Origin: a virus
Length of the DNA: 52,581 bases
Virus record (IMG/VR): IMGVR_UViG_3300025704_002224
Location: 1-52,581 of that record
Strand: one strand, 5' to 3'
The notes beneath the pieces were generated by a model. The model saw only the letters and a list, made by a program, of their open reading frames with translations. It was not told the origin of the DNA and did no database searches. Every line of letters starts with the position of its first letter. Position 1 is the first letter of the stretch. Positions 5,377 to 49,514 of the stretch are shown piece by piece. The translations under genes were made by a program, and so were the position numbers.

Positions 5377-5536
5377 GGACGAAGTCAGATTACTGATGGC
5401 TCAGATAGGCAACCTAGAAGTGCAGGTTGCGGACTACCAGCAGATCGTAAAAGAACTCTCCGACAAGCTCAGCGTCTACGAAAAGAAATACGGCACAGTG
5501 TTTGTGTCTTCTAGAAATACCTCAGACCAAAAATAA
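5357..5536 (+). CDS. Small coiled-coil protein, 59 residues
   Basis: ATG 5357 to TAA 5534-5536. The middle (residues 11-45) has a clear heptad pattern (LLMAQIGNLEVQVADYQQIV, then ELSDKLSVYEKK), so a short coiled coil is likely. It overlaps the previous gene by 20 bases and the convergent minus-strand gene by 26 bases at their 3' ends. Function unknown. Confidence 0.5.
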   Translation: MQDKASKDEVRLLMAQIGNLEVQVADYQQIVKELSDKLSVYEKKYGTVFVSSRNTSDQK

Positions 5537-5948
5537 CAGCATCCTTCTTCCTACGGAACTTGATGTGTTCGTAGTCGACGATGTACACGTTCAACCTACC
5601 ACCGTGTTCATCCATTATCCTTTCCGTGTCTAATGGTCGGATTGTGATCCTGTCCTCGTCAGGCAACTTCGCTTCGTAACCCCAGAACATGGGCCACCAG
5701 TGTAAGGGATTCAGTGAGTCGTAGTGTTCCTTCATTATCAGCAGGAATATGACGGGTGTTATAGTGAACGGCTCCACCCACCATGGGATGGCGTCTATGG
5801 TAAGATAATCTATGAGATGTATGAATCCTGTCCACGCACCCAGTATGGCCAGTAGTATGCCTATTATGGGCCAGAACTCGTCCTCAAAGTCTAAGTCGTT
5901 ATCGTGATGAGAATACATCCGGATCTTTTGTTGTTGACTCAGTTTCAT
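5511..5948 (-). CDS. Membrane protein of unknown function, 145 residues
   Basis: Two hydrophobic segments lie at about residues 26-48 (FWPIIGILLAILGAWTGFIH) and 57-72 (WVEPFTITPVIFLLIM). A Trp-rich stretch (HWWPMFWGYEA) and a polar C-terminal domain of about 60 residues follow. Both ends are probably cytoplasmic, by the positive residues. It lies just before the first tctA gene on the opposite strand. It is not an obvious TctB, which has four membrane segments. Confidence 0.7.
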   Translation of the reverse strand: MKLSQQQKIRMYSHHDNDLDFEDEFWPIIGILLAILGAWTGFIHLIDYLTIDAIPWWVEPFTITPVIFLLIMKEHYDSLNPLHWWPMFWGYEAKLPDEDRITIRPLDTERIMDEHGGRLNVYIVDYEHIKFRRKKDAVIFGLRYF

Positions 5949-5979: not shown

Positions 5980-6028
5980 ACACATAACTTGTTGTAACGC
6001 TCTCATGGAAGTTCACAACATCAACCCC

Positions 6029-6040: not shown

Positions 6041-7477
6041 ATGGAACTTGCTATATTAATGGCGGGTATTGTTTACGGCTTAATCATTGGCCTAATACCA
6101 GCCGCGGGAGCAACAACAGGTCTTATCACACTATTTGGAGTCATGCCCTACTTTGTAGGAGACCCTTACCTGGGTGTGATATTCTGCGTGGCAGTTGTGG
6201 CATCCTCAACAACCGGTGATTCATTTGCAGGTGTGCTGTTAGGCATACCTGGAGCCAACTCTGCGGCGGCCACCATGGTGGATGGTTTTCCCATGGCCAA
6301 GAATGGAGAGGCCACTAGGGCATTGAGTGCCGCGATCACTTCGTCTACTTGCAATGGTCTATTCTGGGGATCACTTACATTTTTATTTTTGCCATGGTAC
6401 ACCAAAGTTGTGATGTACATGGGCATACCCGAACTGTGGGCATTGGTGCTATTGGCATTTGTAACTGTGGGATTCGTATCCACTAGGCGATATGTCAGGA
6501 GTGTGCTCGCAATCGTGTTAGGTGTGACCGTAGGTCTGATTGGAGTGGATGTCAACAACGTACCAAGATTTACAATGGGTTGGAGATACCTCGAAGATGG
6601 TGTACAGATATTACCTTACATGGCAGGACTTTTTGCGATACCAGAACTCTGGGACGGATGGTTCAACAGGAAGAAGACCACAACGATAAAAGCAGAACAC
6701 GGCAGTTGGCAAGATCTCAAACAAGGAGTAAAAGATACCATACGATGTTGGAAGGACAGTGCCAGGGGAGGAGCCATAGGTTCTTTCATAGGACTGCTAC
6801 CTGGACTGGGTGGTGCAATGGCAGACTGGTTGGCATACGGTGCCACAGTTGCCGCTAATCCAAAAGAAAAGTTTGGCGTTGGCAATGTAAAGGGAGTCGT
6901 AGGCGCCGAGGGGGCCAACAACGCACAGAAGGCCTCGTCATTCATTCCAACAGTCTTGTTTGGTATACCTGGTGCAAGTTTCGCCGCGATACTGATGGGA
7001 CTATTTTTGTACCTGGGCATTGACCTGGGATCACCTGATACATTCTACGACGACAAATTATTTGACAGCATGACCTATGCGTTCCTACTTGGAACAATTA
7101 TCACTGCTGTCTTGTGTTATGGACTGGCATATTTCGCGGGGTGGATGACACGTATTCCATACGTGTACTACTTTCCTTGCATACTTGCTGTGATTGTTTG
7201 GGCAACCTTGCAGTACACGGGAGGGTGGGAAGACCTAGCGGTACTATTAGTATTCTCAGTATTTGGAGTGCTATGTAAAAAATTCCAAGTCAGCAGGCCA
7301 GCACTGCTGATTGGGTTCATATTAAGTGACAGGATATACAACCTCACTTATCAACTAACATCCTTACATACGGTAAATGATTTAATCACAAGGCCTATCT
7401 TTATTTTCTTGATGGCATGTGTTATCCTGCTAATGTATTGGGGAATAACAAAGAGGAGTCGATTAGACTATGCTTAA
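6041..7477 (+). CDS. tctA: Tripartite tricarboxylate transporter, large permease (TctA family)
   Basis: This 478-residue inner-membrane protein has about 10-12 hydrophobic segments. It shows both TctA hallmarks: the N-terminal GLIPAAGATTGL loop (family GxLPGxGPTxG), and GIPGANSAAATMVDGFPMAK (family IPGxxSxxATxxDGxPMA). A second repeat-like loop GLLPGLGGAMADWLAYG follows at about residue 250. TctA takes up carboxylates such as citrate with a periplasmic binding protein. The partner tctC overlaps its end by 8 bases. No TctB-like small subunit is next to it. Length is near the family's usual 500. This is an unusual phage gene; the substrate cannot be read from sequence. Confidence 0.9.
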   Translation: MELAILMAGIVYGLIIGLIPAAGATTGLITLFGVMPYFVGDPYLGVIFCVAVVASSTTGDSFAGVLLGIPGANSAAATMVDGFPMAKNGEATRALSAAITSSTCNGLFWGSLTFLFLPWYTKVVMYMGIPELWALVLLAFVTVGFVSTRRYVRSVLAIVLGVTVGLIGVDVNNVPRFTMGWRYLEDGVQILPYMAGLFAIPELWDGWFNRKKTTTIKAEHGSWQDLKQGVKDTIRCWKDSARGGAIGSFIGLLPGLGGAMADWLAYGATVAANPKEKFGVGNVKGVVGAEGANNAQKASSFIPTVLFGIPGASFAAILMGLFLYLGIDLGSPDTFYDDKLFDSMTYAFLLGTIITAVLCYGLAYFAGWMTRIPYVYYFPCILAVIVWATLQYTGGWEDLAVLLVFSVFGVLCKKFQVSRPALLIGFILSDRIYNLTYQLTSLHTVNDLITRPIFIFLMACVILLMYWGITKRSRLDYA

Positions 7478-8516
7478 GAAAACAATAATGGCGTTGGTGT
7501 TGATGACAACAACGGCGCTGGCAGATTACAACTTGATCGTGCCACAAAAACCATCTGGTGGAACTTCTGTGTGGGCACAGATAGTTGTAGCGGAATGGGA
7601 GAAACACCTGGGTGAGAAGATCAATCTTATCTACAAGCCAGGTGCAAGAGACCAACTGGGACCAAACGAGTTCCAAAATCAATTAAGGTTTGATGACAAG
7701 ACTATATTAGTATCACATGGTGGTAACGGTATATCATATCTCGTGGAACCTGTAGAATACAATTACTTTGATTGGGAATCAGTTGGACATATGAACCTAA
7801 ACATCATTGTGGGTGCTAGGAACAAGGCAGACACAAAGAACGGACCTATACAGTTTCCGTCAGGATCTGGAATGACTCCAGAGATCATGGCAATCGTCAT
7901 GTTGCTTACAGGACCCAACGGTGATCCAGTAAAAACATTTGAGAACAAGATTGTATGGGTAAAAGGAATGAAAGGTTCTGAGAGAAGACTTGCATTCATC
8001 AGAGGTGATTTGAACGCGACAAGGGAAAATCCTGCCGCATACAAGAAACACGTGATGCCAGTGATAGGAAAAGGTGATGCATACACTTGGTTCCATCATG
8101 GACTACTAAATGTGAAAACGGGCGAGCACGACAAGGATCCAAACTTCACAGAACCAACATTTGAGGCACTGTACGAATCAACATACGGAGTGGCACCGAG
8201 TGGTGACTTCTATGATGCGTACAAACTTGTCAAGAGTTGGAGAGATGCTTTACAGAAAGCATTCTGGGTGAACAAGGGCAATCCAAACAAGGCCAAACTT
8301 GTTGCCGCATTGGACAAGATGATCAATGATCCAGAGTCAGTGGCCGCTATCGAAAAGAAAGTGGGCAAGTACGAATGGAGAACAGGTGCAGAGGGTGACG
8401 CCGCAGTAAGAACACTGAAGTCATTCATCACACCGGGTGCGTTGAAAACACTATCTGATTTTGGAAAGAATCAATTGGGTTACAATGCTATCTACAAGGA
8501 AGAGTTGACCAAATAG
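7470..8516 (+). CDS. tctC: TctC-family periplasmic substrate-binding protein
   Basis: 348 residues. The N-terminus is a signal peptide (MLKKTIMALVLMTTTALA, cleaved near ADY). The mature protein opens YNLIVPQKPSGGTSVWAQIV, matching the TctC/Bug start LIVPxxPGGxxDxxAR. The periplasmic binding-protein fold is expected throughout. It would capture the ligand and deliver it to the TctA permease encoded just upstream; the 8-base overlap implies coupled translation. The usual Asp of the PGGxxD motif is not obvious, so ligand contacts may differ from known Bug proteins. Confidence 0.85.
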   Translation: MLKKTIMALVLMTTTALADYNLIVPQKPSGGTSVWAQIVVAEWEKHLGEKINLIYKPGARDQLGPNEFQNQLRFDDKTILVSHGGNGISYLVEPVEYNYFDWESVGHMNLNIIVGARNKADTKNGPIQFPSGSGMTPEIMAIVMLLTGPNGDPVKTFENKIVWVKGMKGSERRLAFIRGDLNATRENPAAYKKHVMPVIGKGDAYTWFHHGLLNVKTGEHDKDPNFTEPTFEALYESTYGVAPSGDFYDAYKLVKSWRDALQKAFWVNKGNPNKAKLVAALDKMINDPESVAAIEKKVGKYEWRTGAEGDAAVRTLKSFITPGALKTLSDFGKNQLGYNAIYKEELTK

Positions 8517-9107
8517 ATGTATATTTTGTTTACAGGGGCACCGGGATCAAAGTGGAGTAGTGTTGTCAAGAATATCTACTGGAGTGATGATATAGATCAC
8601 ACAGACTATACAGAAGAGAGAACCTACTACCACGATGCCGATACCCCTGGACGCAAACATCTCATGCACACGGGTGCCTATTTTGATCCGGGCATGGAGT
8701 TCAGCACAACAAGAGATAATTGGGATCTGCCCTTCTCCGGCAAAGGCAAAAGGATTATAAAGTCTCACACGTTCGCACATGAACTTGTACATCTGAAAGA
8801 CTTTCACCATCCCATTGTTATGGTGTACAGGAATGATTTTGAATGTTTGGAGTGGTGGAAACTGTGTGGCGAGTTCAACATAACATATCCAAACTACCAG
8901 CATTTTGTTAATCTCGATTTGATGTGGGAACACATTCAAGCAGAAAATAAAGATATAATGCAGTTCATCAAAGATAACAAAGATAAAATTCACAAACCCA
9001 GAGACAATGTAGACCTTTGCAGGTTGCTAGAAATAAGTTTCCCAAATACGAAGGGAAGGATACATAATTACGCAGACAAAGGAATACAAGTTTATGTCTA
9101 CAAGTAA
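8517..9107 (+). CDS. Sulfotransferase-like P-loop protein
   Basis: 196 residues, starting directly after the tctC stop. TGAPGSKWSS at residues 6-15 resembles the PAPS 5'-phosphosulfate loop. VMVYRNDFECLEWWKLCG at about residue 100 resembles the 3'-phosphate motif (RxxxxxxxS) of sulfotransferases. A KSHTFAHEL segment lies between them, at the place of the usual KTH-type catalytic motif. It may transfer sulfate to a glycan, or be a phage P-loop protein with another group donor. The end overlaps the next gene by 14 bases. Confidence 0.65.
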   Translation: MYILFTGAPGSKWSSVVKNIYWSDDIDHTDYTEERTYYHDADTPGRKHLMHTGAYFDPGMEFSTTRDNWDLPFSGKGKRIIKSHTFAHELVHLKDFHHPIVMVYRNDFECLEWWKLCGEFNITYPNYQHFVNLDLMWEHIQAENKDIMQFIKDNKDKIHKPRDNVDLCRLLEISFPNTKGRIHNYADKGIQVYVYK

Positions 9108-9750
9108 TTGGGAAGACGCAAAAGCAAGAAGCAACTATCACTTTAATAAGTGGCACAAGGACACGGACTGTGTGCAACACCTGGGCAAGTTCACGGGCGG
9201 GTGGCAGACGGAATTACAATCTGTGATAGAGGATGCCAAGCCACTTAACTGGGGTAACCGTAGGGAAGGCACGGGCAGAGAAAATGTCAATGTTGATGTC
9301 GAGGCAGAAGAGAATGACCTAAAGACAGCAGGTGCTGATCCCAAGATGACAATTTACAGAGGACTCAAGGACTTCACAAAGTGCCCAACACTACAAAAGA
9401 TAACAGACTTCTTTGAATTGTCATCTACCAAATCAAAACTACACGTGCAGTTCACAGGTGAGGTTCTAAACATGCACGTAGACAAATTGTATGACCTCGA
9501 CGCAAATCCCAACAACGTGATAAGGATCATGATCATGCTACAGGATTGGGAGCCCGGCCAATTCATAATGTATGGTAACCAACAGTTTGACCGATGGCGA
9601 GCAGGAGACATTCACAAATTTGACTGGCCCAATATTCCACACGCAACAGCAAACGCAAGTAACAAACCAAGACCCATGTTGGTAATCACAGGTGTAATGA
9701 CAGAGAAGACCAGAGAGATACTAGCAAAGCCGATCAATAAAAAGGTTTGA
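9094..9750 (+). CDS. 2OG-Fe(II) oxygenase / Asp-Asn hydroxylase-like protein
   Basis: 218 residues. The double-stranded beta-helix core shows HVD (H128, D130), then RIMIMLQDWEPGQFIMYG, GDIHKFDW, and IPHATANAS (H183) with R193 in KPRP. This gives the HxD...H iron triad and a 2-oxoglutarate Arg in the right order. These enzymes hydroxylate a substrate using O2, Fe(II) and 2-oxoglutarate. It overlaps the sulfotransferase-like gene by 14 bases. The substrate is unknown; the link with TTT genes, whose known ligands are di- and tricarboxylates, is suggestive only. Confidence 0.75.
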   Translation: MSTSNWEDAKARSNYHFNKWHKDTDCVQHLGKFTGGWQTELQSVIEDAKPLNWGNRREGTGRENVNVDVEAEENDLKTAGADPKMTIYRGLKDFTKCPTLQKITDFFELSSTKSKLHVQFTGEVLNMHVDKLYDLDANPNNVIRIMIMLQDWEPGQFIMYGNQQFDRWRAGDIHKFDWPNIPHATANASNKPRPMLVITGVMTEKTREILAKPINKKV

Positions 9751-9782: not shown

Positions 9783-10442
9783 ATGAACAAAAAGATATTT
9801 GCGAAACTTCTCGCACACAGTCAAAACAATCTGGACAAGATCACACAACCTTATATTCAGGAAACATTTGGTGTCCAAGTGCAGAGATGTGACACCATCG
9901 AACAGTACGTGGAGGCAATAGACGATGCCTGCTTGAACAAGTATTTCTCAAAATATTGGCAAAACGACATGAAAAAGTGGAAGTATTCTGGTCTTGCTTT
10001 GATAGACGAGGTAAATTCTTTAAAACCAAGGGCGGTGCTAGATGTCGGGTGTGGTTACAACGAATTCAAAGGCAAAATACATAATCTTATCGGTATAGAT
10101 CCATACAATAACCTTGCTGATCACGAAGTGGGCACATTAGAATATAGAACAGACCAGAAATTTGATGTAATTCTATGTCTAGGATCAGTGAACTTCGGTA
10201 ACAAGGATAAGATAATAGCAGAAGTTTCTAGATGTGTGAGTTTACTGGCAGACGGTGGCACAATGTTCTTTCGGGTAAATCCTGGAGTGCAACACGACAA
10301 GCCAGAGGCAGATTGGATAGAATTCTATGCTTGGAACGTGCCTTTTATTATAGAACTGGCTGAGATGTTTCAATTGAAGATTTTAGACATCAGAGATGAC
10401 ACAAATCAACGAAAATACTTCATTTACCGTAAAACCAAGTAG
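9783..10442 (+). CDS. Class I SAM-dependent methyltransferase
   Basis: 219 residues. The SAM-binding motif I is AVLDVGCGYNEFKG at about residues 82-95, followed by the acidic strand IGIDPYNN (motif II) and FDVILCLGSVNFG (motif IV). A helical N-terminal cap of about 75 residues may bind substrate. It has its own near-leaderless promoter and no Shine-Dalgarno site, so it is probably expressed early and apart from the gene upstream. Target unknown. Confidence 0.82.
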   Translation: MNKKIFAKLLAHSQNNLDKITQPYIQETFGVQVQRCDTIEQYVEAIDDACLNKYFSKYWQNDMKKWKYSGLALIDEVNSLKPRAVLDVGCGYNEFKGKIHNLIGIDPYNNLADHEVGTLEYRTDQKFDVILCLGSVNFGNKDKIIAEVSRCVSLLADGGTMFFRVNPGVQHDKPEADWIEFYAWNVPFIIELAEMFQLKILDIRDDTNQRKYFIYRKTK

Positions 10443-10485: not shown

Positions 10486-10785
10486 ATGCAAAAACATACT
10501 AGAAGTTTATTAGAAGAATTGAGCTCAATGCCTTTAAAAAGGGACAAGGAAGAGGTTGTAGAGAGTAGAGCCTCACACATCCTTGAAAGTGCCATCAGAC
10601 TTATGACATATATCAGGGAGAACTTCGATCAAGACACAGCATTCAAACTAGAAAAGAAATTCAACTCCGCACTTAAGAACATGGACGCTTCCAAGTTCAG
10701 CAAAGGAGTCGCACGGATTAAAGAGAATCGAGACGTAAAAGAGAACGTGCTTAAAATCAAAGACGGCGAATACCGAGAGGACTAA
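10486..10785 (+). CDS. Conserved T4-like phage protein, 99 residues
   Basis: A small helical, charged protein. VESRASHILESAIRLMTYIR and LEKKFNSALKNMDASKFSKG match a short protein I recall from marine T4-like phages, where it sits among structural genes; this is memory, not a search. No catalytic motif. The next gene starts 4 bases later. A late box upstream fits a virion or assembly role. Confidence 0.65.
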   Translation: MQKHTRSLLEELSSMPLKRDKEEVVESRASHILESAIRLMTYIRENFDQDTAFKLEKKFNSALKNMDASKFSKGVARIKENRDVKENVLKIKDGEYRED

Positions 10786-13663: not shown

Positions 13664-13782
13664 TGACGATCAAATACATTTGCGAGAAGTGTGAGTGCGA
13701 ACAGCACTGCCGGAGATCCTGTACAGAGTGCAGGGACTGTCCAGACTGTGCATGTAAAGAGTGCGATGCCGGGAGCAAATAG
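13660..13782 (+). CDS. Cysteine-rich small protein, 10 Cys in 40 residues
   Basis: ATG 13660 overlaps the previous stop as ATGA, and AAGGA lies 5-6 bases upstream, so translation is well supported. The 40 residues contain Cys at 8, 11, 13, 17, 21, 24, 27, 30, 32 and 35, in CxxC, CxC and CxxxC spacing, with basic and acidic residues between. This looks like a metal-binding (zinc or iron-sulfur) or metallothionein-like peptide. It has no membrane segment. The last 17 bases overlap the following methyltransferase gene. I know no named family for it. Confidence 0.65.
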   Translation: MMTIKYICEKCECEQHCRRSCTECRDCPDCACKECDAGSK

Positions 13783-14365
13783 TTTCTGGGTACTTTACGG
13801 ACAGCACACCAAACCCACTTACCTAGAAGATGCAGGCAATGGACAGCAGGCACAAAGAGATGCCGCTCTGCAATACATCAAGCAGTGGCGTGTGTGCCTG
13901 GACATAGGTAGCAACATAGGACAGTGGACGAGACCACTCTCTAAGAAGTTTGAAAGTGTGGTGTGCTTCGAACCAAATCCCAACTTCAGAGAATGCTTCG
14001 AGAAGAACATACAAGAGAAAAATGTATTGCTATGGCCTTACGGATTATCAGACAAAGAACACAAGGCAAAGCAAGACTTCAACTCAACTGTGTTACATGA
14101 AGAGGATGGAGACATAGACTGTAGGACACTTGACAGTTTCGGATTGACCAATGTAGACTTCGTTAAGATAGATGTTGACGGCTTTGAGATACCATTACTG
14201 AACGGAGCGAGGGAAACATTGAGCAAGAACGATCCCGTGATCAACATAGAGATGAAGAGGGACAAGAGGACGGATATTGTTGTGAAATGTGAGTCTATAC
14301 TGAAAGATCTCGGCTACAAGTTCCAAAAACGCACAAAGAGTGACGAAGTGTGGCTTAAATCTTAA
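13766..14365 (+). CDS. FkbM-family methyltransferase
   Basis: 199 residues from ATG 13766; a GTG at 13691 would overlap the Cys-rich gene almost fully and is less likely. Motif I is VCLDIGSNIGQWTRPLS, followed by VVCFEPNPNFREC (FkbM FEPxP motif), then VDFVKIDVDGFEIPLLNGA (KIDVEGxE motif). These are the full FkbM signature. FkbM enzymes O-methylate sugars or small molecules. It ends before the late box of the structural cassette. The window holds another FkbM gene at 29342. Confidence 0.85.
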   Translation: MPGANSFWVLYGQHTKPTYLEDAGNGQQAQRDAALQYIKQWRVCLDIGSNIGQWTRPLSKKFESVVCFEPNPNFRECFEKNIQEKNVLLWPYGLSDKEHKAKQDFNSTVLHEEDGDIDCRTLDSFGLTNVDFVKIDVDGFEIPLLNGARETLSKNDPVINIEMKRDKRTDIVVKCESILKDLGYKFQKRTKSDEVWLKS

Positions 14366-19368: not shown

Positions 19369-21027
19369 ATGCAGTATGATAGCAAGATTTACCAGTTAAA
19401 CTCTTTGCGGCTGGGCTTGATACACGAAGACAACATACAAAACAAACCTAGTATTTTTGTTGCAGTTGGATCTCAGGCCGTAGAAACCAAGAGCAGGATT
19501 AGAAAATACATAGACCTCCACCGGGCAGGCACACACAACGTCATAATCATACCCCACGACTTCGATGGCACTGAGCCAGGAGACAATCATGAAATATATA
19601 CCTACTACGAAACGCAATTGAGTGTTGAATTCTATCTCACTGAAAAAATTCCCAGGGGTCATACTTTCTTCAAGGACTTCGGCAAGCCCATGGAGAACTT
19701 CACTGAATATCATTTTGACGAAAATACAAAATTTATAAAACGTGTATGTGAAACAGGATTTGGCAAGAGCAAGGTCTTCTGTGACAAGCCCTTTGCACAC
19801 AACTACATCCATCCCGACGGCAGAATTAGATTGTGTTGCACCACTAAACAGAACCTACCTACCAACAACAACTACAATTTATTCAACGCTGGCACACACA
19901 GCATTGACGACTACTGGAACAGTGACAGGATGAAAGAAGTACGCAGGAAGATGATCGCAGGTGAGAAGATCAAGGACTGCGAACGATGTTATCAACAAGA
20001 GAGCCAGGGTGTGCAAAGTCTGAGAACCACACAAAACATGGAAGAGTACATCAGAGACACTCTGCCCGATGGCACGTACCTCAAATCAGCAACTGAAATG
20101 CAGATTCAGATGGGGAATATCTGCAATCTTAAGTGCAAGATGTGTAGCCAGATGTACAGCCACATGCACGGACTTGAGACGCTAGCCATAGGTGAACAAG
20201 ATCCAGAATGGTTTCATTGGGTCAAGGAGCAAGGTGCTAATGTAAACAACTGGACCAATGATCTAGGACGCAAGGAGGAATGGTATAAAAATCCGGACAC
20301 AAAGCAAAAGATGTTTGATCACATCAGTAAAAACATAGCGTCACTGATTGTGATCGGAGGTGAGCCCACCCTGATCCCAGAGTTCTATGAAATGTTCGAA
20401 CACTGTGAAAAAAATGGGACACTGGGTGATAAAAGCATCACACTGGTCACTAATTTGACAAACACCAATCCAAAGATGACCGAATGGTTGCCTAAGTTAC
20501 AGGCGTGGACGATATGGGCCAGCGTGGACGGCATAAAAGAGAGGACCGAATACATCCGTTATCCTAGCAGGTGGGATAAGGTGTTAGAGAGTTTAGATTT
20601 TTACAAAAAGAATATTGGCAATAATGGAAAAATAGTCCTAAGTCCTGCCGTACAGTTGCTGAACATAGACCAATTGGACGACATCATCAAGTGGTGGAAA
20701 GACTGGTGCGGGGGCGAACTAAACGAACAGTTTGGATGGACATGGTTGGCCACTGTTTGGTATCCTTTGATCTGCAACCCAAGTATAGCACCTCGTGAAT
20801 GGAGATTGAAAGTGGCAGACAAACTGTCTAAATACCAGTTCGACGAATATTATGAAAACATCATAAAGTCGCTACGCGAAGACAAACACACCGAAGAGCA
20901 GTACAGAGAACTACAGAAGTCATTCATCAAGTACAATGATCGGCAGGACCAATTCCGTAATGTGCCACACACGTGGCGACAACTGTTGCCAGAACTAGAT
21001 CAGTCTTTGACAAACTCACTAAAGTAA
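19369..21027 (+). CDS. Radical SAM enzyme, 552 residues
   Basis: The 4Fe-4S site is CNLKCKMC (C252, C256, C259). The GGEPTL motif at about residue 328 binds SAM. Before it is a cysteine-containing auxiliary domain (KVFCDKPFAHNYIHPDG, LCCTTK, then DCERCYQQE), like the twitch/SPASM-type domains. This auxiliary layout recurs in the second radical SAM gene at 48381. The first ~120 residues are an extra domain without known motif. Twitch-type enzymes modify peptides, sugars or small molecules by radical chemistry. It lies among late genes. Substrate unknown. Confidence 0.88.
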   Translation: MQYDSKIYQLNSLRLGLIHEDNIQNKPSIFVAVGSQAVETKSRIRKYIDLHRAGTHNVIIIPHDFDGTEPGDNHEIYTYYETQLSVEFYLTEKIPRGHTFFKDFGKPMENFTEYHFDENTKFIKRVCETGFGKSKVFCDKPFAHNYIHPDGRIRLCCTTKQNLPTNNNYNLFNAGTHSIDDYWNSDRMKEVRRKMIAGEKIKDCERCYQQESQGVQSLRTTQNMEEYIRDTLPDGTYLKSATEMQIQMGNICNLKCKMCSQMYSHMHGLETLAIGEQDPEWFHWVKEQGANVNNWTNDLGRKEEWYKNPDTKQKMFDHISKNIASLIVIGGEPTLIPEFYEMFEHCEKNGTLGDKSITLVTNLTNTNPKMTEWLPKLQAWTIWASVDGIKERTEYIRYPSRWDKVLESLDFYKKNIGNNGKIVLSPAVQLLNIDQLDDIIKWWKDWCGGELNEQFGWTWLATVWYPLICNPSIAPREWRLKVADKLSKYQFDEYYENIIKSLREDKHTEEQYRELQKSFIKYNDRQDQFRNVPHTWRQLLPELDQSLTNSLK

Positions 21028-28605: not shown

Positions 28606-29315
28606 TGTTCAAAGATGTAATAGGCGAGTGGCCCATGCATGAAAGATTCATACTGACCTCGTGTGATGACAACTACTTCGATCAGTACTTCCCTAGATTC
28701 TACAACACCTACAAGGAAAATTGGCATCTGCCTATACACGTACACATCATAGATCCATCTGACAACTCTATATCGAGACTGCAGGAATTGGATCTGTCAT
28801 ACACACACTGCACTACTGATCCTGCTGTGTTAAAATGGCCATACTCATACGTGACCTACTGCCAGGCGCAGAGGTTCATACTGCTGGGACACAACCTGCT
28901 AGAAGGTCAATCAGTGATCGTTGCAGACGTGGATTCGTATGCCCTAAGGGAGCCAACGGAAACCCAGAAGCATACGTTGGAATCGGACATGGCATTCACA
29001 GAATACAACGGAAGACTGATGGCGACGTTCTGCAACTTCCATCACAGTAAAAGAGCACAGGCCCTGGAGTCAGCGATCGAGATGCAACAACTGATCGAGA
29101 ACACAGACACTATAGGGGTGGATCAATTGGTCATAAAACAGACATTTGGATCATTGTCATACAATAATCTTACACATAACGAATGGATAAGGCACCTTGA
29201 TGTCAAGACAGCAGATGATCTTAACGAACACAATAAATGTTTAATATACCACGAGAAGGGTACCAGGGGTAAGGGAAAAGGAATTTCGATATCATGGAAT
29301 CACATCACAGAGTAG
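28605..29315 (+). CDS. GT-A type glycosyltransferase-like protein
   Basis: 236 residues. RFILTSCDDNYFDQYFPRFY at the start and VIVADVDSYALREP (DxD motif D-V-D) at about residue 105 give the nucleotide-sugar/metal site of GT-A enzymes such as GT8. The GVDQLVIKQ segment later is also typical of that fold. It starts on the last base of the previous gene's stop (TAATG). Likely role: adding sugar to a virion, DNA or host surface component. Acceptor unknown. Confidence 0.72.
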   Translation: MFKDVIGEWPMHERFILTSCDDNYFDQYFPRFYNTYKENWHLPIHVHIIDPSDNSISRLQELDLSYTHCTTDPAVLKWPYSYVTYCQAQRFILLGHNLLEGQSVIVADVDSYALREPTETQKHTLESDMAFTEYNGRLMATFCNFHHSKRAQALESAIEMQQLIENTDTIGVDQLVIKQTFGSLSYNNLTHNEWIRHLDVKTADDLNEHNKCLIYHEKGTRGKGKGISISWNHITE

Positions 29316-29341
29316 AACAAAGGCAAGGTGAGGACGGAAAC

Positions 29342-29989
29342 ATGTGGGCATGGCCCACACTCGATAGACGTTGTTGGAAAGCGATGATCAAACATTGGTT
29401 CATGGCAGAGAAGGTAATGGAACTCACATCACAATATCACAAGGACATTGACAAGAACGTAATGATACAGGCGGGTGGCAACGTAGGTGTGTATGCATGG
29501 CAATACGCACAGATGTTTGATTCTGTGTACACATTTGAACCGGAAGACCTCAACTTCTATTGTTTGGAAAGGAACATCGCAGACCAGAAGAACATCAAAG
29601 CAACCAAGGCCTTCTTAGGAAAACAAAGTGGTACAGCAGGTATAAAAAATCATGCAAACGATAAAGCAGTTGCGAGGACAGACAAATACCCTGACGGCAG
29701 GCCAACAGAATACAACACTGGTGCATACGAGATTGACGGCATCGGCGAGATACCTGTGATTGACATAGATTCAATGAATCTACCACAATGTGATCTCATA
29801 CACCTGGACATAGAGGGAAGTGAACTTGATGCTCTAAAGGGTGCGGAGAACACAATCAAACATCATAAACCCATACTGTGCCTCGAATGGTTCTACAACA
29901 CAGACATCTTGAAGGATGTGCTAGACGATTGGGGATATGAGGAGATAGCGATGGCCGAGGGCAGTGATAAGATCTTTAAACTTAAATAG
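29342..29989 (+). CDS. FkbM-family methyltransferase (second copy)
   Basis: 215 residues from ATG 29342, preceded by AGGTGAGGACGG; an ATG at 29294 overlaps the previous gene and lacks a ribosome site. Motif I is VMIQAGGNVGVYAWQYA, followed by VYTFEPEDLNFYCLERN (FEPxx) and LIHLDIEGSELDALKGAE (LDIEGxE). These are FkbM hallmarks. Motif I has AGGN instead of the common GAN, a small change. It sits between a glycosyltransferase and another methyltransferase, probably one sugar-modifying group. Confidence 0.82.
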   Translation: MWAWPTLDRRCWKAMIKHWFMAEKVMELTSQYHKDIDKNVMIQAGGNVGVYAWQYAQMFDSVYTFEPEDLNFYCLERNIADQKNIKATKAFLGKQSGTAGIKNHANDKAVARTDKYPDGRPTEYNTGAYEIDGIGEIPVIDIDSMNLPQCDLIHLDIEGSELDALKGAENTIKHHKPILCLEWFYNTDILKDVLDDWGYEEIAMAEGSDKIFKLK

Positions 29990-30779: not shown

Positions 30780-31087
30780 CTATTTAAGTGGCCCGTTCTG
30801 TTGCAAGGTGGGCCATACCCCTGGGATTATTGGTTATTACGCCGCTAATCTCAATTCAGACATACCAACTGTTAAGTCAGCAAATCCTAATGCTTTTTTG
30901 TTTGCATTTAAAAAACAGCCTGATTAGGTCAGTGCCATCACCGTAAACTCCCAAGACCTTTACACACCCGTCGAAGCCAAATACACCCCCGGAAGGGATT
31001 ACATAAGCCACCCGTAATAAATTGGTGGAGGTGGAGGGAGTCGAACCCTCGTCCGAAATGTTTATTTCGTCGTGATCAACATTTACA
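30780..31087 (-). ncRNA. ssrA: Permuted (two-piece) tmRNA gene
   Basis: On the minus strand the acceptor end comes first. A T-arm (GAGGG, loop TTCGACT, CCCTC) and acceptor strand CACCTCC followed by ACCA end at 31023. A 32-base spacer (31022-30991) follows, then the tmRNA 5' end GGGGGTG at 30990, continuing TATTTGGCTTCGACGG. GGGGGTG pairs with CACCTCC (one G-U). This order is the circularly permuted form, normally cut to two RNAs. The tag frame starts at GCA 30905: 22 codons beginning ANKKALGF and ending SELRLAA, then TAATAA (30839-30834). The acceptor piece also has an AAATGTT/AACATTT hairpin. Outer ends are estimated. Confidence 0.88.
30789..30815 (-). terminator. Hairpin at the 3' end of the tmRNA gene
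   Basis: TGGCCC and GGGCCA pair with a 15-base loop. No T run follows, so it may be a tmRNA helix or processing signal rather than a terminator. Confidence 0.4.
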
Positions 31088-31093
31088 AATATA

Positions 31094-31122
31094 ATTATAC
31101 CTGAAGGTTGACGTATTGTCAA
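31094..31122 (-). promoter_or_regulatory. Sigma70-like promoter for the tmRNA
   Basis: TTGACA (31122-31117), 17-base spacer, TATAAT (31099-31094). Perfect consensus; predicted start 31087. Confidence 0.88.
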
Positions 31123-31136
31123 CTTTGTGCTAAATT
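31108..31136 (+). promoter_or_regulatory. Sigma70-like promoter with leaderless spacing, sharing -35 region with the tmRNA promoter
   Basis: TTGACG (31108-31113), 17-base spacer, TAAATT (31131-31136). Predicted start 31143, one base before ATG 31144. Its -35 and the tmRNA -35 form the palindrome TTGAC-N5-GTCAA. Confidence 0.6.
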
Positions 31137-34213: not shown

Positions 34214-34723
34214 ATGCCAAGCGAGAAAACAAAAAAATTACTGGAAGGACTGGGCAAGATCACAGACTCTGCACCCAGCAGGTTCGAACAACAGAAGTTC
34301 CATTCCTACACCAACAGATACTATCCCAACCTGTTAAACAAACTGCCGGCATCCTACGACAAAGCCAAGAGAAAGAAGGACGAAGACGGAGACGAGTACA
34401 TCATGATAGACAGGGTGTATGGATCACTGTATGAGAATGCACTGCACCAAAAAGACGGCACAATCTACACAGGCAAGCTCTACAGCAAACGTAGACTGGT
34501 TACCCAAAAGGATGCAATGACCAATGAGAAGAACAACTTCTACAGTGCCTGCGTGAGCACAGCGGATGGTAGATGGTTTGACAACTGTGGATTTCCAATA
34601 GAAGCACCCACCAAACTGGAACCAGAGAAACAGCCAGATCCGGAAGAATTGGAACTGGAGAGACAAAGGAAACTGGAAAACGCAAAGGCCAAAGAGGCAG
34701 AGATACTGGCCAACCTCAAATAA
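34214..34723 (+). CDS. Unknown 169-residue protein
   Basis: Basic N-terminus, central region with Tyr and Asp (DEYIMIDRVYGSLYENALHQ) and a highly charged helical end (PEELELERQRKLENAKAKEA). Two Cys in the middle (SACVSTADGRWFDNCGFP). No family recognised. It ends just upstream of the promoter of the second TTT operon. Confidence 0.55.
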   Translation: MPSEKTKKLLEGLGKITDSAPSRFEQQKFHSYTNRYYPNLLNKLPASYDKAKRKKDEDGDEYIMIDRVYGSLYENALHQKDGTIYTGKLYSKRRLVTQKDAMTNEKNNFYSACVSTADGRWFDNCGFPIEAPTKLEPEKQPDPEELELERQRKLENAKAKEAEILANLK

Positions 34724-34798: not shown

Positions 34799-35716
34799 AT
34801 GAAAAAGATATTGTCAGTTCTTCTGTCGGCTTTTCTTCTTTTCACGGCAGACGTTCTTGCTGGTGATAAAATAATTGTGTTGAATACAGCCAGTAACAAT
34901 GGAACAATGTTCTCGCAATCAACAGCATATGCAGAAGATTTTAAAAACATGGGATACGATGTTGAATTCGTGTCTCCGGGTAACGCTTGTAAGGCTTGGG
35001 CATACCTACAGAAAGTGCCATCCAACCAACCCGTGTTTATAAACATAGATGCTTACGGACAGGCCAAACCTGCATCTGGACTTTTACAAAACTGTGGTCC
35101 AATATTGGCCAGCAAGAAAGATCTTGTTGCCGCTTACTTAGATCATTTCCATGTGTGTACAATAAATGGATCGGCCGATGAATTATTTTCTAAGGGTGCG
35201 AGCACAAGGATAGGCACTAACAAGCCTGGTGGATTTTGGCAACCGGTGGTTGATAAAATCAATAAAGAAAATAAATCAAGTCATAAGAGGATACAGTACG
35301 GCGGCAGTGGAGACACGAGAAAAGCATTACTTTCAGGCGAAGTGGATTATGTGTTCTTATCAACACGCCACACATACAAACTAGAAAATGCGGGAGCAAC
35401 TTGTTTTGCCGAGTTCACTGATTCTAAAAAACTCAAATACGAACACACTGTTAACGACCTGTCAGCAGGTAAGGATAAATTTGATTCTAGTTTCGCGACT
35501 GGTTGGAGTTTGTTCAATGCTGACAAGAAAATGGTTAAGCAACTGAGAGTGCAGATTAGATCGTTATTTGAAAATGATAGTAACATCATCAAAGCATTAG
35601 GCGGTTCAACACCGATCAACTATTACGGTTGGGACAAATCTATTTCTGCTAGGGTGAAATGGGTAAACGGCTCTATAGATAGATGGGCACAGGCTATGAA
35701 GCAGGCCGCTCAATAA
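34799..35716 (+). CDS. tctC: TctC-like periplasmic substrate-binding protein (second)
   Basis: 305 residues. Signal peptide MKKILSVLLSAFLLFTADVLA, cleaved before GDK. The mature part has the TctC-like segments IGTNKPGGFWQPVVDKINKE, then IQYGGSGDTRKALLSGEVDY, where the ligand-dependent hinge region is expected. It differs clearly from the first TctC (7470), so it is not a recent copy. Two extra Cys pairs are visible (PGNACKAW, LQNCGPI, FHVCTI). It would feed the permease encoded after it. Order here is C-A, the reverse of the first pair. More AT-rich than the first TTT pair. Confidence 0.8.
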   Translation: MKKILSVLLSAFLLFTADVLAGDKIIVLNTASNNGTMFSQSTAYAEDFKNMGYDVEFVSPGNACKAWAYLQKVPSNQPVFINIDAYGQAKPASGLLQNCGPILASKKDLVAAYLDHFHVCTINGSADELFSKGASTRIGTNKPGGFWQPVVDKINKENKSSHKRIQYGGSGDTRKALLSGEVDYVFLSTRHTYKLENAGATCFAEFTDSKKLKYEHTVNDLSAGKDKFDSSFATGWSLFNADKKMVKQLRVQIRSLFENDSNIIKALGGSTPINYYGWDKSISARVKWVNGSIDRWAQAMKQAAQ

Positions 35717-37020
35717 GGCCAGTGGACTTTCTACTTGCAATCATACTAGGTATATTTGCAGGAACATTTGCAGGTTTACTCCCAGGGGTGGGGGCAACCG
35801 TAAGTGTCTTAATTCTATTCCCAGTACTGCTTACATTTGATCCTATAAACATCATTGTTTGTTTCGTCAGTTTGTATTCCATGACGCAGTATGTTGGAAG
35901 TGTACCCGCATTATTGCTAGGTGTTCCTGGGGAAGCCAGTTCATTACCTGCAGTCATTGAAGGGCAAAAACTAAAACAACAGAACAAGATTAGTGATGCT
36001 ATTGCATACACGGCAATCGGATCCCTCGTGGGATCGGTAATCGTCGTGGCACTTACACTTATCAGCGGACCGCTTATTGAGAACCTTGCTAAAATTTATA
36101 GGACACCTCTTCAGACTGTTTTGATCTTTTTAGTGCTGACGATGATGTTTTTCTACAAGGAAAATAAGAAATTTACTAATCTTGTGTTAATGATCGCTGG
36201 TTACGTACTTGGCATGATAGGCATACACGGAGACCTTAATCGAGAATTTTTAACATTTGGTAACGTTAATCTCTACAGTGGTCTGCCTATGTTTCCAGTG
36301 CTACTTTCATTATTTGTATTTCCATTATTCTTAAAGACTGTAGACACTCCTACTAGAAATATTTCACCTTTCAAAATAAGGCTATCGTACTTTGTGACCT
36401 TTTTCAAACACAGTACAAGTAGCCTACGCGGAACACTACTAGGATTCATAGGAGGCTTTTGTCCTGGGATGACACACGCCTTCAGTAGTCAACTGGCATA
36501 CACAACAGAAAAAGCAATCAGTAAAGACAGTCTAAAAAGTGTTATAAGTTCTGAAACGGCCAACAATGCCGGAGCGTTCAGTGCCGTGTTGCCATTGATA
36601 ATCCTCGGCATTCCTATATCAAGCAGTGAGGCTCTACTGCTGGCTATCCTGGAAACAAAATCTTTTGCATTCAGCCTTAATGAGTTTATTCCTATCTTGC
36701 AGAAATCAGCGGTGGCATTATTAATTGTAAACGTCATAGGGATTATCATTGCATGGCCACTTGCTAAACATGTTTGCAAAATATTTCTTATAAATCAAAA
36801 AAAATTATACACATTTTTGTTTCTATCCTTGGTCATGCTGAATTACTATATTGGTGGCCTTTACTACAGCGAATATTACTACATGATAGTTTTATTATGT
36901 TTTATGCCGGTAGGCTATCTGTTACGCAAAGTAAACACAATGCCGTTGATATTTTGCTTTATAATAGCGAACTACAGTATCGAACTCATGTGGATTTTTT
37001 ACCAACTATACCTAATGTGA
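35683..37020 (+). CDS. tctA: TctA-family permease (second)
   Basis: 445 residues if it starts at ATG 35683; a GTG at 35722, just after the tctC stop, is the likely alternative. About 10-12 membrane segments. GTFAGLLPGVGATVSVLI and LLGVPGEASSLPAVIEGQKL are the two TctA signatures. A second loop FIGGFCPGMTHAFSSQLAYT and GIPISSSEALLLAILE mirror them, as expected from the internal duplication. It overlaps tctC by up to 34 bases. Together with 6041 this is a second, distinct carboxylate-type importer on a phage. No TctB gene is found. Confidence 0.85.
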   Translation: MGTGYEAGRSIRPVDFLLAIILGIFAGTFAGLLPGVGATVSVLILFPVLLTFDPINIIVCFVSLYSMTQYVGSVPALLLGVPGEASSLPAVIEGQKLKQQNKISDAIAYTAIGSLVGSVIVVALTLISGPLIENLAKIYRTPLQTVLIFLVLTMMFFYKENKKFTNLVLMIAGYVLGMIGIHGDLNREFLTFGNVNLYSGLPMFPVLLSLFVFPLFLKTVDTPTRNISPFKIRLSYFVTFFKHSTSSLRGTLLGFIGGFCPGMTHAFSSQLAYTTEKAISKDSLKSVISSETANNAGAFSAVLPLIILGIPISSSEALLLAILETKSFAFSLNEFIPILQKSAVALLIVNVIGIIIAWPLAKHVCKIFLINQKKLYTFLFLSLVMLNYYIGGLYYSEYYYMIVLLCFMPVGYLLRKVNTMPLIFCFIIANYSIELMWIFYQLYLM

Positions 37021-37112: not shown

Positions 37113-38189
37113 ATGAATTTCCATTACAAAGTAGGAAGTGAAATATTTTTCAACAAACTACAAGCGATTCAAAAAAACGTAGAAACAACAGACCCAATAT
37201 ACCTGGAAGATCCCTATGAAGATGCTGATTTTTCTGTAGTGCCAGAACAATCTCTGGATGATCTCATCGCCGCTCATCTTCGTCAGTTGAGAGAGAGCCA
37301 TGAAAAAATTAAGTTGTATTACTCAGGGGGATCTGATAGTCATCTATTATTGGACAGCATTGTCAAGAACAACATTCATGTGGACGAGATAATTTGCCTA
37401 AAGAGCGGTATTCCCCCTGCCGATTTTGAAATTGATAAATTTGCCATACCTGCTCTATCAAACTATGCAGGACAGTTGAAAGGGACAAAAATAACCATCA
37501 AAACTCCAACAATGCAGGATTATTTTGATTACTACAAAGATGGAATAACCAATGATAAGATCCAATCCGGAATGGCAGGAACACACAACTATTTTAGACT
37601 ACTTTGGTCCAAGGACATCTTTGTGCAAGAACGCCACACTGGCACCTTACATATACGAGGATTAGAGAAACCTAGAATTGTAAAGCATGGAACAGAATAT
37701 TATGCGTATATTCTTGACACAGAGATGGAACCCCACGAAAACAACTATCAATTTTACAGTGCCATGGCCACAATACAAATTAAACAGTGTCATATGTATC
37801 TGGAAAAAATACAACAACTTGGACAAAACACACACATACCAAATATTTGGGAAGAGACTGTTGGCAAATCTATGACAGACCATGCATTTCCTCCGAAAGA
37901 AATATACTTCGGCCAGGTGGATAATTTTATAACTTTCAAAGGATATAAATTTTACTACAGCAACAACAAAGATAGAATTGCCATAAATTGGTGTTGTGAA
38001 AATCATCCGAATCTATTGTTTTTATGGCATGAAAGTTTACAAGAACTCAAATCCCTGACTAAAAATCAATGGTGGAATGATGGTAGACCTGAAATGGGCA
38101 CAACCGGTGTGTTGAGTAAATTCAGGTGTCTAACCAAAAAAGCAATCAAAACAGTCGACGAACTCTATCCCAACGGCTTCAAACCATAA
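37113..38189 (+). CDS. PP-loop ATP pyrophosphatase (asparagine-synthetase-like)
   Basis: 358 residues. IKLYYSGGSDSHLLLDSI contains the PP-loop S71-G-G-S-D-S, which binds ATP and releases pyrophosphate. VDEIICLKSGIPPADFEIDK and LSNYAGQLKGTKITIKTPT fit the N-type ATP-PPase fold. It has no glutamine-amidotransferase domain (no N-terminal Cys), so ammonia or another nucleophile would be used. It may activate a carboxylate or tRNA-type substrate as an adenylate. It follows the second TTT operon and is similarly AT-rich, which hints at a shared metabolic purpose. Confidence 0.75.
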   Translation: MNFHYKVGSEIFFNKLQAIQKNVETTDPIYLEDPYEDADFSVVPEQSLDDLIAAHLRQLRESHEKIKLYYSGGSDSHLLLDSIVKNNIHVDEIICLKSGIPPADFEIDKFAIPALSNYAGQLKGTKITIKTPTMQDYFDYYKDGITNDKIQSGMAGTHNYFRLLWSKDIFVQERHTGTLHIRGLEKPRIVKHGTEYYAYILDTEMEPHENNYQFYSAMATIQIKQCHMYLEKIQQLGQNTHIPNIWEETVGKSMTDHAFPPKEIYFGQVDNFITFKGYKFYYSNNKDRIAINWCCENHPNLLFLWHESLQELKSLTKNQWWNDGRPEMGTTGVLSKFRCLTKKAIKTVDELYPNGFKP

Positions 38190-48344: not shown

Positions 48345-48373
48345 TTGCCAACATTTACAAAAAAAGGTATAAT
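48345..48373 (+). promoter_or_regulatory. Sigma70-like promoter with leaderless spacing (second radical SAM)
   Basis: TTGCCA (48345-48350), 17-base spacer, TATAAT (48368-48373). Predicted start 48380, one base before ATG 48381. Confidence 0.8.
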
Positions 48374-48380
48374 AAGTAAG

Positions 48381-49514
48381 ATGAAAAATATTTGCATAAT
48401 GCCCTGGATCGCTGTTGACAGGAACAGGAATAATGTCGTGGGCAGAACCACACTCACACCTTGTTGTTTTTATGAACCCGAGGGTGAACATCGTGACATA
48501 GAATCTTATTGGAACAGTGACGAAACAATCAAACTTCGTAAAGACCTTCTTGCAGGCAAAAGGCCTAAAGGTTGCAGACTTTGTTGGAAAGCAGAGGACA
48601 ACGGCATTACTAGCACGAGGCAGAGGATCAACGAAGGCAGACTGGAAGAGTACAAAGAAAGACTCTCGCAAACCAAGATGGAACTCCCACCCACCCAGAT
48701 CAAATACACTGTTGGGCAAGAGTGTAACCTCGCTTGTAGGATGTGCCTTCCCACTTTCAGTACAAAGGTAAAAAAGGTTTGGGATATTCTTGGCAAAACA
48801 CAAGACATGGAGTTGGACACGTTAATGAACACTCCGGATTATATTCTCGAGAACAGGAAACATATAAGTTATGTGGATATAACGGGAGGCGAGCCGTTCT
48901 ACCACAAGAAAGCAAAGAACCTTTTAAGGGAGTTGATAAGGACCGGTGACAACGAACATATCACTTTACACATAACAACCAATGCCACGAGGATAGATTT
49001 AGACACAGTGGCATTGATCAAAAAATTCAAAGACGTAGTTTTGACTATCAGCGTAGACGGTGTGGGTGATGTGCAAGAATACATAAGACCTGGTTGCAAT
49101 TGGAACAAGTTGTCAGAGAACATAAGACTTCTGAAAACGAATGGGATATCGTTACAGGTAGCATCAACAATAAGTGTAATGACAATATTGCGATTGCCGG
49201 ACCTGGAGGATTGGTGTAATAAGAATGACATATTCTGGTCACACCCGGGATTGATTGATAAGCCGGGAGAACTGTCTCCTCACAATCTACCATATCAACT
49301 ACACTACCTCGTGCCTGAAAAATACAAAAAGTACGTGGAGCCAGAAGCCACACACGATCCAGTAAATTTCATTAAACAACTTGATCAATACTGGAAGACT
49401 GACATAACCAAAGTTATGCCCGAGTGGAAAAGAGTTTTTGACAAACTACACTGGAAACAAAGCGATCATTTAGATAATCTCAACAACGTTGCAGAAAAGT
49501 ACGTCAATGGATAA
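48381..49514 (+). CDS. Radical SAM enzyme with auxiliary Cys domain
   Basis: 377 residues from ATG 48381, the site of a leaderless promoter. The SAM/4Fe-4S motif is CNLACRMC (C115, C119, C122), followed by ITGGEPFYHKKAKNLLREL (GGEP) and VLTISVDGVGDVQEYIRPG. An N-terminal auxiliary domain (C5; C28-C29 in LTPCCFYEPEG; GCRLCW near 67-72) matches the twitch/SPASM-like domain of the radical SAM gene at 19369. Probable C-H activating enzyme on a peptide or sugar. It overlaps the PLP-fold gene by 8 bases, so a two-step pathway is plausible. Confidence 0.88.
   Translation: MKNICIMPWIAVDRNRNNVVGRTTLTPCCFYEPEGEHRDIESYWNSDETIKLRKDLLAGKRPKGCRLCWKAEDNGITSTRQRINEGRLEEYKERLSQTKMELPPTQIKYTVGQECNLACRMCLPTFSTKVKKVWDILGKTQDMELDTLMNTPDYILENRKHISYVDITGGEPFYHKKAKNLLRELIRTGDNEHITLHITTNATRIDLDTVALIKKFKDVVLTISVDGVGDVQEYIRPGCNWNKLSENIRLLKTNGISLQVASTISVMTILRLPDLEDWCNKNDIFWSHPGLIDKPGELSPHNLPYQLHYLVPEKYKKYVEPEATHDPVNFIKQLDQYWKTDITKVMPEWKRVFDKLHWKQSDHLDNLNNVAEKYVNG

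Follow-up and report, generated by a model that had tools for sequence, protein, structure and literature searches.

A facultative phage cassette encoding a putative two-part TctA-TctC importer and a second importer pair in the same viral genome

A virus record from IMG/VR, classed as linear and with all of its 52,581 bases referred to below as the window, carries a TctA gene and an overlapping gene for a TctC-type binding protein in a facultative cassette, as well as a second such pair. Both belong to long-standing phage families, and we consider it probable (roughly 0.7) that they import a solute for the infected cell. Since an old importer pair is found in a removable cassette and is accompanied by a second pair, these large, T4-like marine phages probably feed on solutes that the cell is made to import while infected.

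The first TctA-TctC pair

The genes of the cassette, its borders and the element preceding tctA1 were assigned as follows.

5511-5948, minus strand: left flank gene, 145 aa, with a membrane segment; left border of the cassette, not a subunit; retained where the cassette is absent or symporter-replaced
5985-6026, plus strand: conserved hairpin element (RNA leader or DNA operator) before tctA1; CM match of 63 bits
6041-7477, plus strand: tctA1, TctA-family membrane transporter subunit, 478 aa; PF01970 at E = 4.6e-94, dN/dS 0.070
7470-8516, plus strand: tctC1, 348 aa, putative solute-binding protein of the TctC/Bug type, with a signal peptide; by homology chain and fold, dN/dS 0.066
8517-9107, plus strand: third cassette gene, P-loop-like predicted fold, 196 aa; next gene in 79 of 80 loci, AF2 pLDDT 90
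9094-9750, plus strand: oxygenase-like gene of 218 aa, resembling 2OG/Asp hydroxylases only on inspection by eye; without Pfam match
9783-10442, plus strand: methyltransferase-like gene, 219 aa, last of the cassette; PF13489 at E = 4.4e-5, below its cut-off; in 76 of 80 loci
10486-10785, plus strand: right flank gene, bordering the cassette on the right; in 13 empty sites, 69-77 nt separate it from the left flank gene

The first-pass annotation had read this region as a 478-residue TctA overlapped by a TctC with a signal peptide, and both identities were borne out. The PF01970 match of TctA1 spans 422 of the 423 profile positions. The TctA family is characterized by the motif G-x3-G-x3-G-x2-P-G-x-G in TM1 and TM7 (PMC5812351). 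TctA1 agreed with it at five of six positions in TM1, where P-A-A-G stands in place of P-G-x-G, and at all six positions in TM7; none of 500 shuffled sequences scored at least five in both segments.

The tctA1 and tctC1 reading frames share 8 nt, and the N-terminus of TctC1 resembles a signal peptide (MLKKTIMALVLMTTTALA/DY, ending in ALA). Since TctC1 had no match in Pfam, PHROG or NCBIfam, PF03401 not being reached directly, the TctC label needed proof by other routes. By BLASTP, TctC1 was 29% identical (E = 3e-26) to the TctC adjoining an alphaproteobacterial TctA, and this cellular protein passes the PF03401 cut-off. Profile-profile comparison gave a match with a probability of 99.7% (E = 1.4e-25), and a search of the PDB sequences with the TctC1 profile gave no relevant match. 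The predicted structure was of middling confidence (pLDDT 64, pTM 0.68); the first 14 PDB matches of the predicted fold were TctC/Bug binding proteins, with MatC carrying malate at the top (E = 8.9e-5), and BugD was matched at Z 8.2 in a second structure comparison. Judged by this homology chain and the predicted fold, the product of 7470-8516 is a TctC-type binding protein.

A contig search for the pair in related phages, proposed in the annotation as a check, returned at least 80 IMG/VR contigs. One scan of viral contigs yielded 90 relatives of TctA1, and a scan for TctC1 yielded 124; IMG/VR contigs are partly redundant, and these locus counts do not equal counts of independent phages. The best 80 of the 90 TctA1 relatives were 75-100% identical, and TctC1 was present in 79 of these 80 loci, the exception (L070) ending within tctA. 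The two genes overlap by 8 nt in 69 loci and by 11 nt in 6, and in 76 loci the gene after tctC begins at most 2 nt from the tctC stop. The median pairwise dN/dS was 0.070 for tctA (69 intact sequences), 0.066 for tctC and 0.153 for the third gene. Thus, the pairing, the kept overlap and the low dN/dS point to functional, coupled genes, and an overlap kept in 69 loci at dN/dS values of 0.070 and 0.066 argues against a chance pair of reading frames. The T4 late promoter TATAAATA was not found within 100 nt upstream of tctA in any of 68 loci. Among deposited phages, TctA relatives were found only at 25-30% identity, in mostly unannotated records, and TctC relatives not at all.

TctB, a small subunit with four TM segments that is either separate or fused, is thought to be necessary in canonical TTT systems. 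The absence of a TctB gene had been taken earlier as a sign of a host TctB or of a two-part system, and a two-part arrangement agrees with the extended search: PF07331 (TctB) had no match in 15 phage records, and the two TctA genes were the only ORFs of the window with at least five predicted TM segments, with no TctB candidate in the cassette. PF07331 also misses the presumed fused TctB part of the alphaproteobacterial relatives. Since this profile is insensitive and the window is part of a phage, TctB can be called absent with good confidence from the cassette and with less confidence from the phage as a whole. With TctA and TctC detected and TctB not found, the pair is treated as a two-part relative and not as a canonical TctABC system. 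The ORF at 5511-5948, with its membrane segment, was considered as TctB and rejected, because empty-site and symporter phages retain it.

Binding proteins and membrane parts of transporters are usually mutually specific, which counts against the idea that TctC1 loads a host transporter. This idea is one form of an alternative that we regard as unlikely, namely that TctC1 is the active part, either loading a host transporter or working with a host-encoded TctB plus the phage TctA. No TctB was found in the window, 119 of 197 sampled SAR11-family genomes have TctA genes and bacteria commonly have orphan TctC proteins (PMC5812351), all of which would suit such a role. However, tctA1 is under purifying selection as strong as that on tctC1, the genes are consistently paired, and SAR11 is not a proven host.

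The cassette site and its occupants

The cassette site was surveyed in the 80 best-matching relatives (91-100% identity) of the DUF6267 gene in the window. Between the genes corresponding to 5511-5948 and 10486-10785, TctA-TctC was present in 39 contigs, the site was empty in 13 and one unrelated gene was present in 5; 23 contigs do not resolve the site. Since near relatives have filled or empty sites, the cassette comes and goes as a unit reaching from the hairpin to the methyltransferase gene. The oxygenase-like gene is a non-constant member of this unit, being present in 49 of 80 loci.

The fold of the third gene matched kinases and sulfotransferases, weakly and in no case at E ≤ 0.001; an assignment as sulfotransferase was rejected, because the matches were weak and mixed with kinases. 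In L449, L457, L467, L468 and L436, the cassette site is occupied by one gene of about 230 aa (start ..LLVNGCSYGECWTPTQNFI..) instead of an importer. Outside the cassette, the window contains two radical-SAM genes and two more methyltransferase genes (13691-14365, 19369-21027, 29294-29989 and 48345-49514).

In locus L313, the hairpin and both flanks are kept and TctA-TctC is replaced by a 480-aa sodium:solute symporter (PF00474, E = 2e-24). Relatives of this symporter with 50-80% identity were found at 57 viral loci (L358-L414). The symporter lies between the same left and right neighborhood genes in L358 (the L313 contig), L359, L360, L361 and L409, and in L388, L404 and L408 the right-side neighborhood alone is visible. 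Many of the symporter loci, several of them in other contexts, adjoin relatives of the third, fourth and methyltransferase genes of the cassette. As judged from these sequences, a putative solute-uptake function of the slot is best supported by this exchange, in which a TTT-type importer gives way, at one and the same site, to a solute importer of an unrelated family. TTT and symporter families differ in their substrates; thus, the swap need not imply one common substrate. A role in uptake, as initially proposed for host carbon, is plausible and is strengthened by the swap; a citrate-like compound would be a candidate substrate.

The swap also bears on a second alternative, that TctA has the membrane or incoming DNA as its target, perhaps to exclude other phages, and is no nutrient importer. 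In two archaea, DNA uptake requires TctA-like proteins (PMC10133366), and facultative occurrence, as seen for the cassette, is frequent among exclusion genes. Nevertheless, such a role appears very improbable: in practically all phage loci, TctA has beside it a TctC-type binding protein bearing a signal peptide, the alternative occupant of the slot is a solute symporter, and TctA1 and TctC1 show strong conservation and no diversification. Import of a solute remains the preferred function of the pair.

The hairpin is 42 nt long and ends 14 nt before tctA1, with 22 columns invariant among 35 distinct copies. Its pattern occurred once per contig in 72 viral contigs, followed by TctA1 in 70 of them. 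In the stem, 9 of 11 pairs are invariant; one compensatory change and some G-U pairs were observed, not above the level of shuffled sequences. No Rfam family matched at E ≤ 10. Empty cassette sites gave no match, with weak matches elsewhere only. Since a full-strength hairpin was found in only one of the symporter contigs at the cassette site, the element belongs mainly to TctA1. In 397 SAR11-order genomes, the search returned a MAG contig identical to the cassette and seven weak matches, about the number expected by chance at that cut-off; the two best of these seven sit at metK genes. In a second phage context (L050, L055, L070), the 42-nt element is missing before tctA1, and a different hairpin, similar in layout (AAC, stem GTGCC/GGCAC, GTTCA), lies within about 70 nt upstream of tctA1.

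The second pair, phage context and origin

Only the first pair had been noticed initially. The window also contains a second TctA gene with its own binding-protein gene.

34799-35716, plus strand: tctC2, 305 aa, second putative TctC-type binding protein; its family profile has TctC/Bug structures as matches, the best at E = 4.5e-11
35683-37020, plus strand: tctA2, second TctA-family membrane subunit, 445 aa; PF01970 at E = 4.8e-69, profile match to TctA1 at E = 1.3e-29

TctA2 agreed with the family motif at 6/6 positions in TM1 and 5/6 in TM7, and the motif scores of both TctA1 and TctA2 fall inside the range of the tested bacterial members. The N-terminus of TctC2 is signal-peptide-like, and the top matches of its family profile were TctC/Bug structures (E = 4.5e-11, 2.6e-8 and 8e-8); profile comparison of TctC2 with TctC1 gave no convincing match. 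A scan of viral contigs with the second-pair sequences yielded 46 TctA2 loci, and a related binding-protein gene adjoins TctA2 in 45 of them, the remaining contig ending too early. Diverged versions (31-39% identity) occupy the same island of records G003, G009 and G016, with varying gene order of the pair. Of the second-pair records tested, 12 of 20 contained gp23 and 10 of 20 a terminase gene, on contigs of up to 328 kb.

In the window, the second pair is flanked by a PP-loop gene (37113-38189) and by 34214-34723. In L410 (2517-5416), a symporter gene lies beside relatives of the PP-loop gene and, weakly, of 34214-34723. Judged from L410, the second island may hold a swappable transporter too.

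The location of the first pair in a phage was confirmed by its neighbors on other records. In L073, a locus of record G011, a terminase-like gene and then small genes precede TctA, TctC and the third and fourth genes, and a tail-sheath-like gene follows; the terminase of G011 was also identified by PF03237, and the tail-sheath-like gene was named from its sequence. In addition, gp23 (T4-type capsid) shares a record with TctA1 in G004 (108 kb) and G011 (35 kb). Inside a real phage genome and kept under selection, TctA1 and TctC1 show two properties by which auxiliary metabolic genes are recognized.

The host is probably an alphaproteobacterium, as indicated by three clues that are each weak alone. 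The window carries a permuted (two-piece) alphaproteobacterial-type tmRNA gene at 30787-31126 on the minus strand (RF01849, E = 8.2e-23; RF04321, E = 1.3e-20), which ARAGORN also detects; no tmRNA gene was found in 17 other phage loci scanned. Among cultured phages, the nearest relative of the DUF6267 gene is that of Pelagibacter phage HTVC008M (43%). Finally, one Pelagibacter MAG contig was found to be identical (100%) to the TctA1 cassette sequence.

A quick tree of TctA, with cellular sampling from Alphaproteobacteria and Omnitrophota only and with several long TctA2 branches, placed the phage TctA1 proteins in one clade (SH-aLRT 99). Their sister was an Omnitrophota MAG protein, and next outward were alphaproteobacterial TctA proteins with a C-terminal four-TM extension, like a fused TctB. 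SAR11 TctA formed a separate clade, TctA2 a viral-only clade in the sample, and TctA1 did not branch from SAR11 TctA within this cellular sample. The phylogeny, likewise named at the outset as a check, gave no sign of recent bacterial contamination; as far as these sequences reach, it shows TctA1 to be an old phage clade and not a recent host capture. A bacterial contaminant as source of the pair is excluded, and a chimeric contig or the recent capture of a host fragment is hardly credible, since, despite the identical Pelagibacter MAG contig and the TctA genes often owned by SAR11 genomes (119 of the 197 SAR11-family genomes sampled), at least 80 viral contigs have phage flanks, the L073 cassette lies amid terminase-like and tail-sheath-like genes, gp23 occurs on TctA1 records, near relatives show empty-site alleles and the TctA1 clade stands apart from SAR11 TctA.

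Proposed function and comparison with known systems

During infection, TctC would be exported to the periplasm, where it would bind a small solute, by family analogy an organic anion, and pass it to TctA. TctA would import the solute using an ion gradient, and the infected cell would thereby be supplied with a precursor or with carbon or nitrogen. Translation of the two subunits is probably coupled through the 8-nt overlap, and the operon is probably under the control of the hairpin. The import reading is supported by the cellular relative, which is likewise a TctA-TctC pair with no TctB beside it; the missing TctB of canonical systems, the P-A-A-G of the TM1 motif and the fact that the phage genomes are seen in part count against it. 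More tentatively, T4-like marine phages might keep their own branches of two-part secondary importers without TctB in slots where unrelated importers interchange, the main one under a new phage-specific leader, and uptake might be a swappable trait.

If the importers work, widespread marine phages install binding-protein-dependent uptake in the infected cell, beyond redirecting host metabolism, and different marine phages put different uptake systems at the same locus. The needs of the infected marine cell from seawater would then become testable with two-gene constructs. The phage pair is also a natural minimal system for asking if TTT transport needs TctB.

The closest cellular counterpart is a TctA-TctC pair of an Omnitrophota MAG (L084), with the same gene order, lengths of 478 and 350 aa and identities of 57% and 49%. 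It also has no adjacent TctB, and methyltransferase genes are nearby; however, it lies on a cellular contig without phage genes and without the hairpin element. By its sequence, a radical-SAM gene is another neighbor of the L084 pair. The alphaproteobacterial relatives with extended TctA share 34-37% identity in the TctA core and 28-29% in the TctC-type protein, and their genes are adjacent as well. Their TctA continues for about 180 aa with four TM segments, whereas TctA1 stops at 478 aa, and the phage pair differs further in having no detected TctB domain or gene, in its phage location and in its own clade.

The pair had been announced as the first of its kind on a phage, which needs to be narrowed. 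In the accessible parts of the two papers concerned, tctA on a SUP05 viral contig is recorded in 2014 as 'protein domain hit only' (PMC4164917), and tricarboxylate-transport genes are mentioned in passing for the norB/nirK scaffold of a myovirus (PMC8115048). Viral contigs with tctA were thus noted in 2014 and probably again in 2020. These cases share a TctA-type viral gene with the window, and those parts do not describe a TctC pair, its conservation, a cassette or a second pair. The literature searched (few subscription papers, no preprints) described neither the TctA-TctC pair nor the second one, and neither the facultative cassette with its hairpin nor the exchange for a symporter; it also contained no paper in which a solute symporter or a binding protein is treated as an auxiliary gene of phages. 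According to the accessible part of PMC8115048, marine viruses carry the transporters AmtB (ammonium) and FocA (nitrite), with FocA being 86% identical to host genes. Uptake functions are borne by marine viruses in both cases; however, FocA there is close to the host, whereas the system described here is a binding-protein-dependent secondary transporter on branches of its own.
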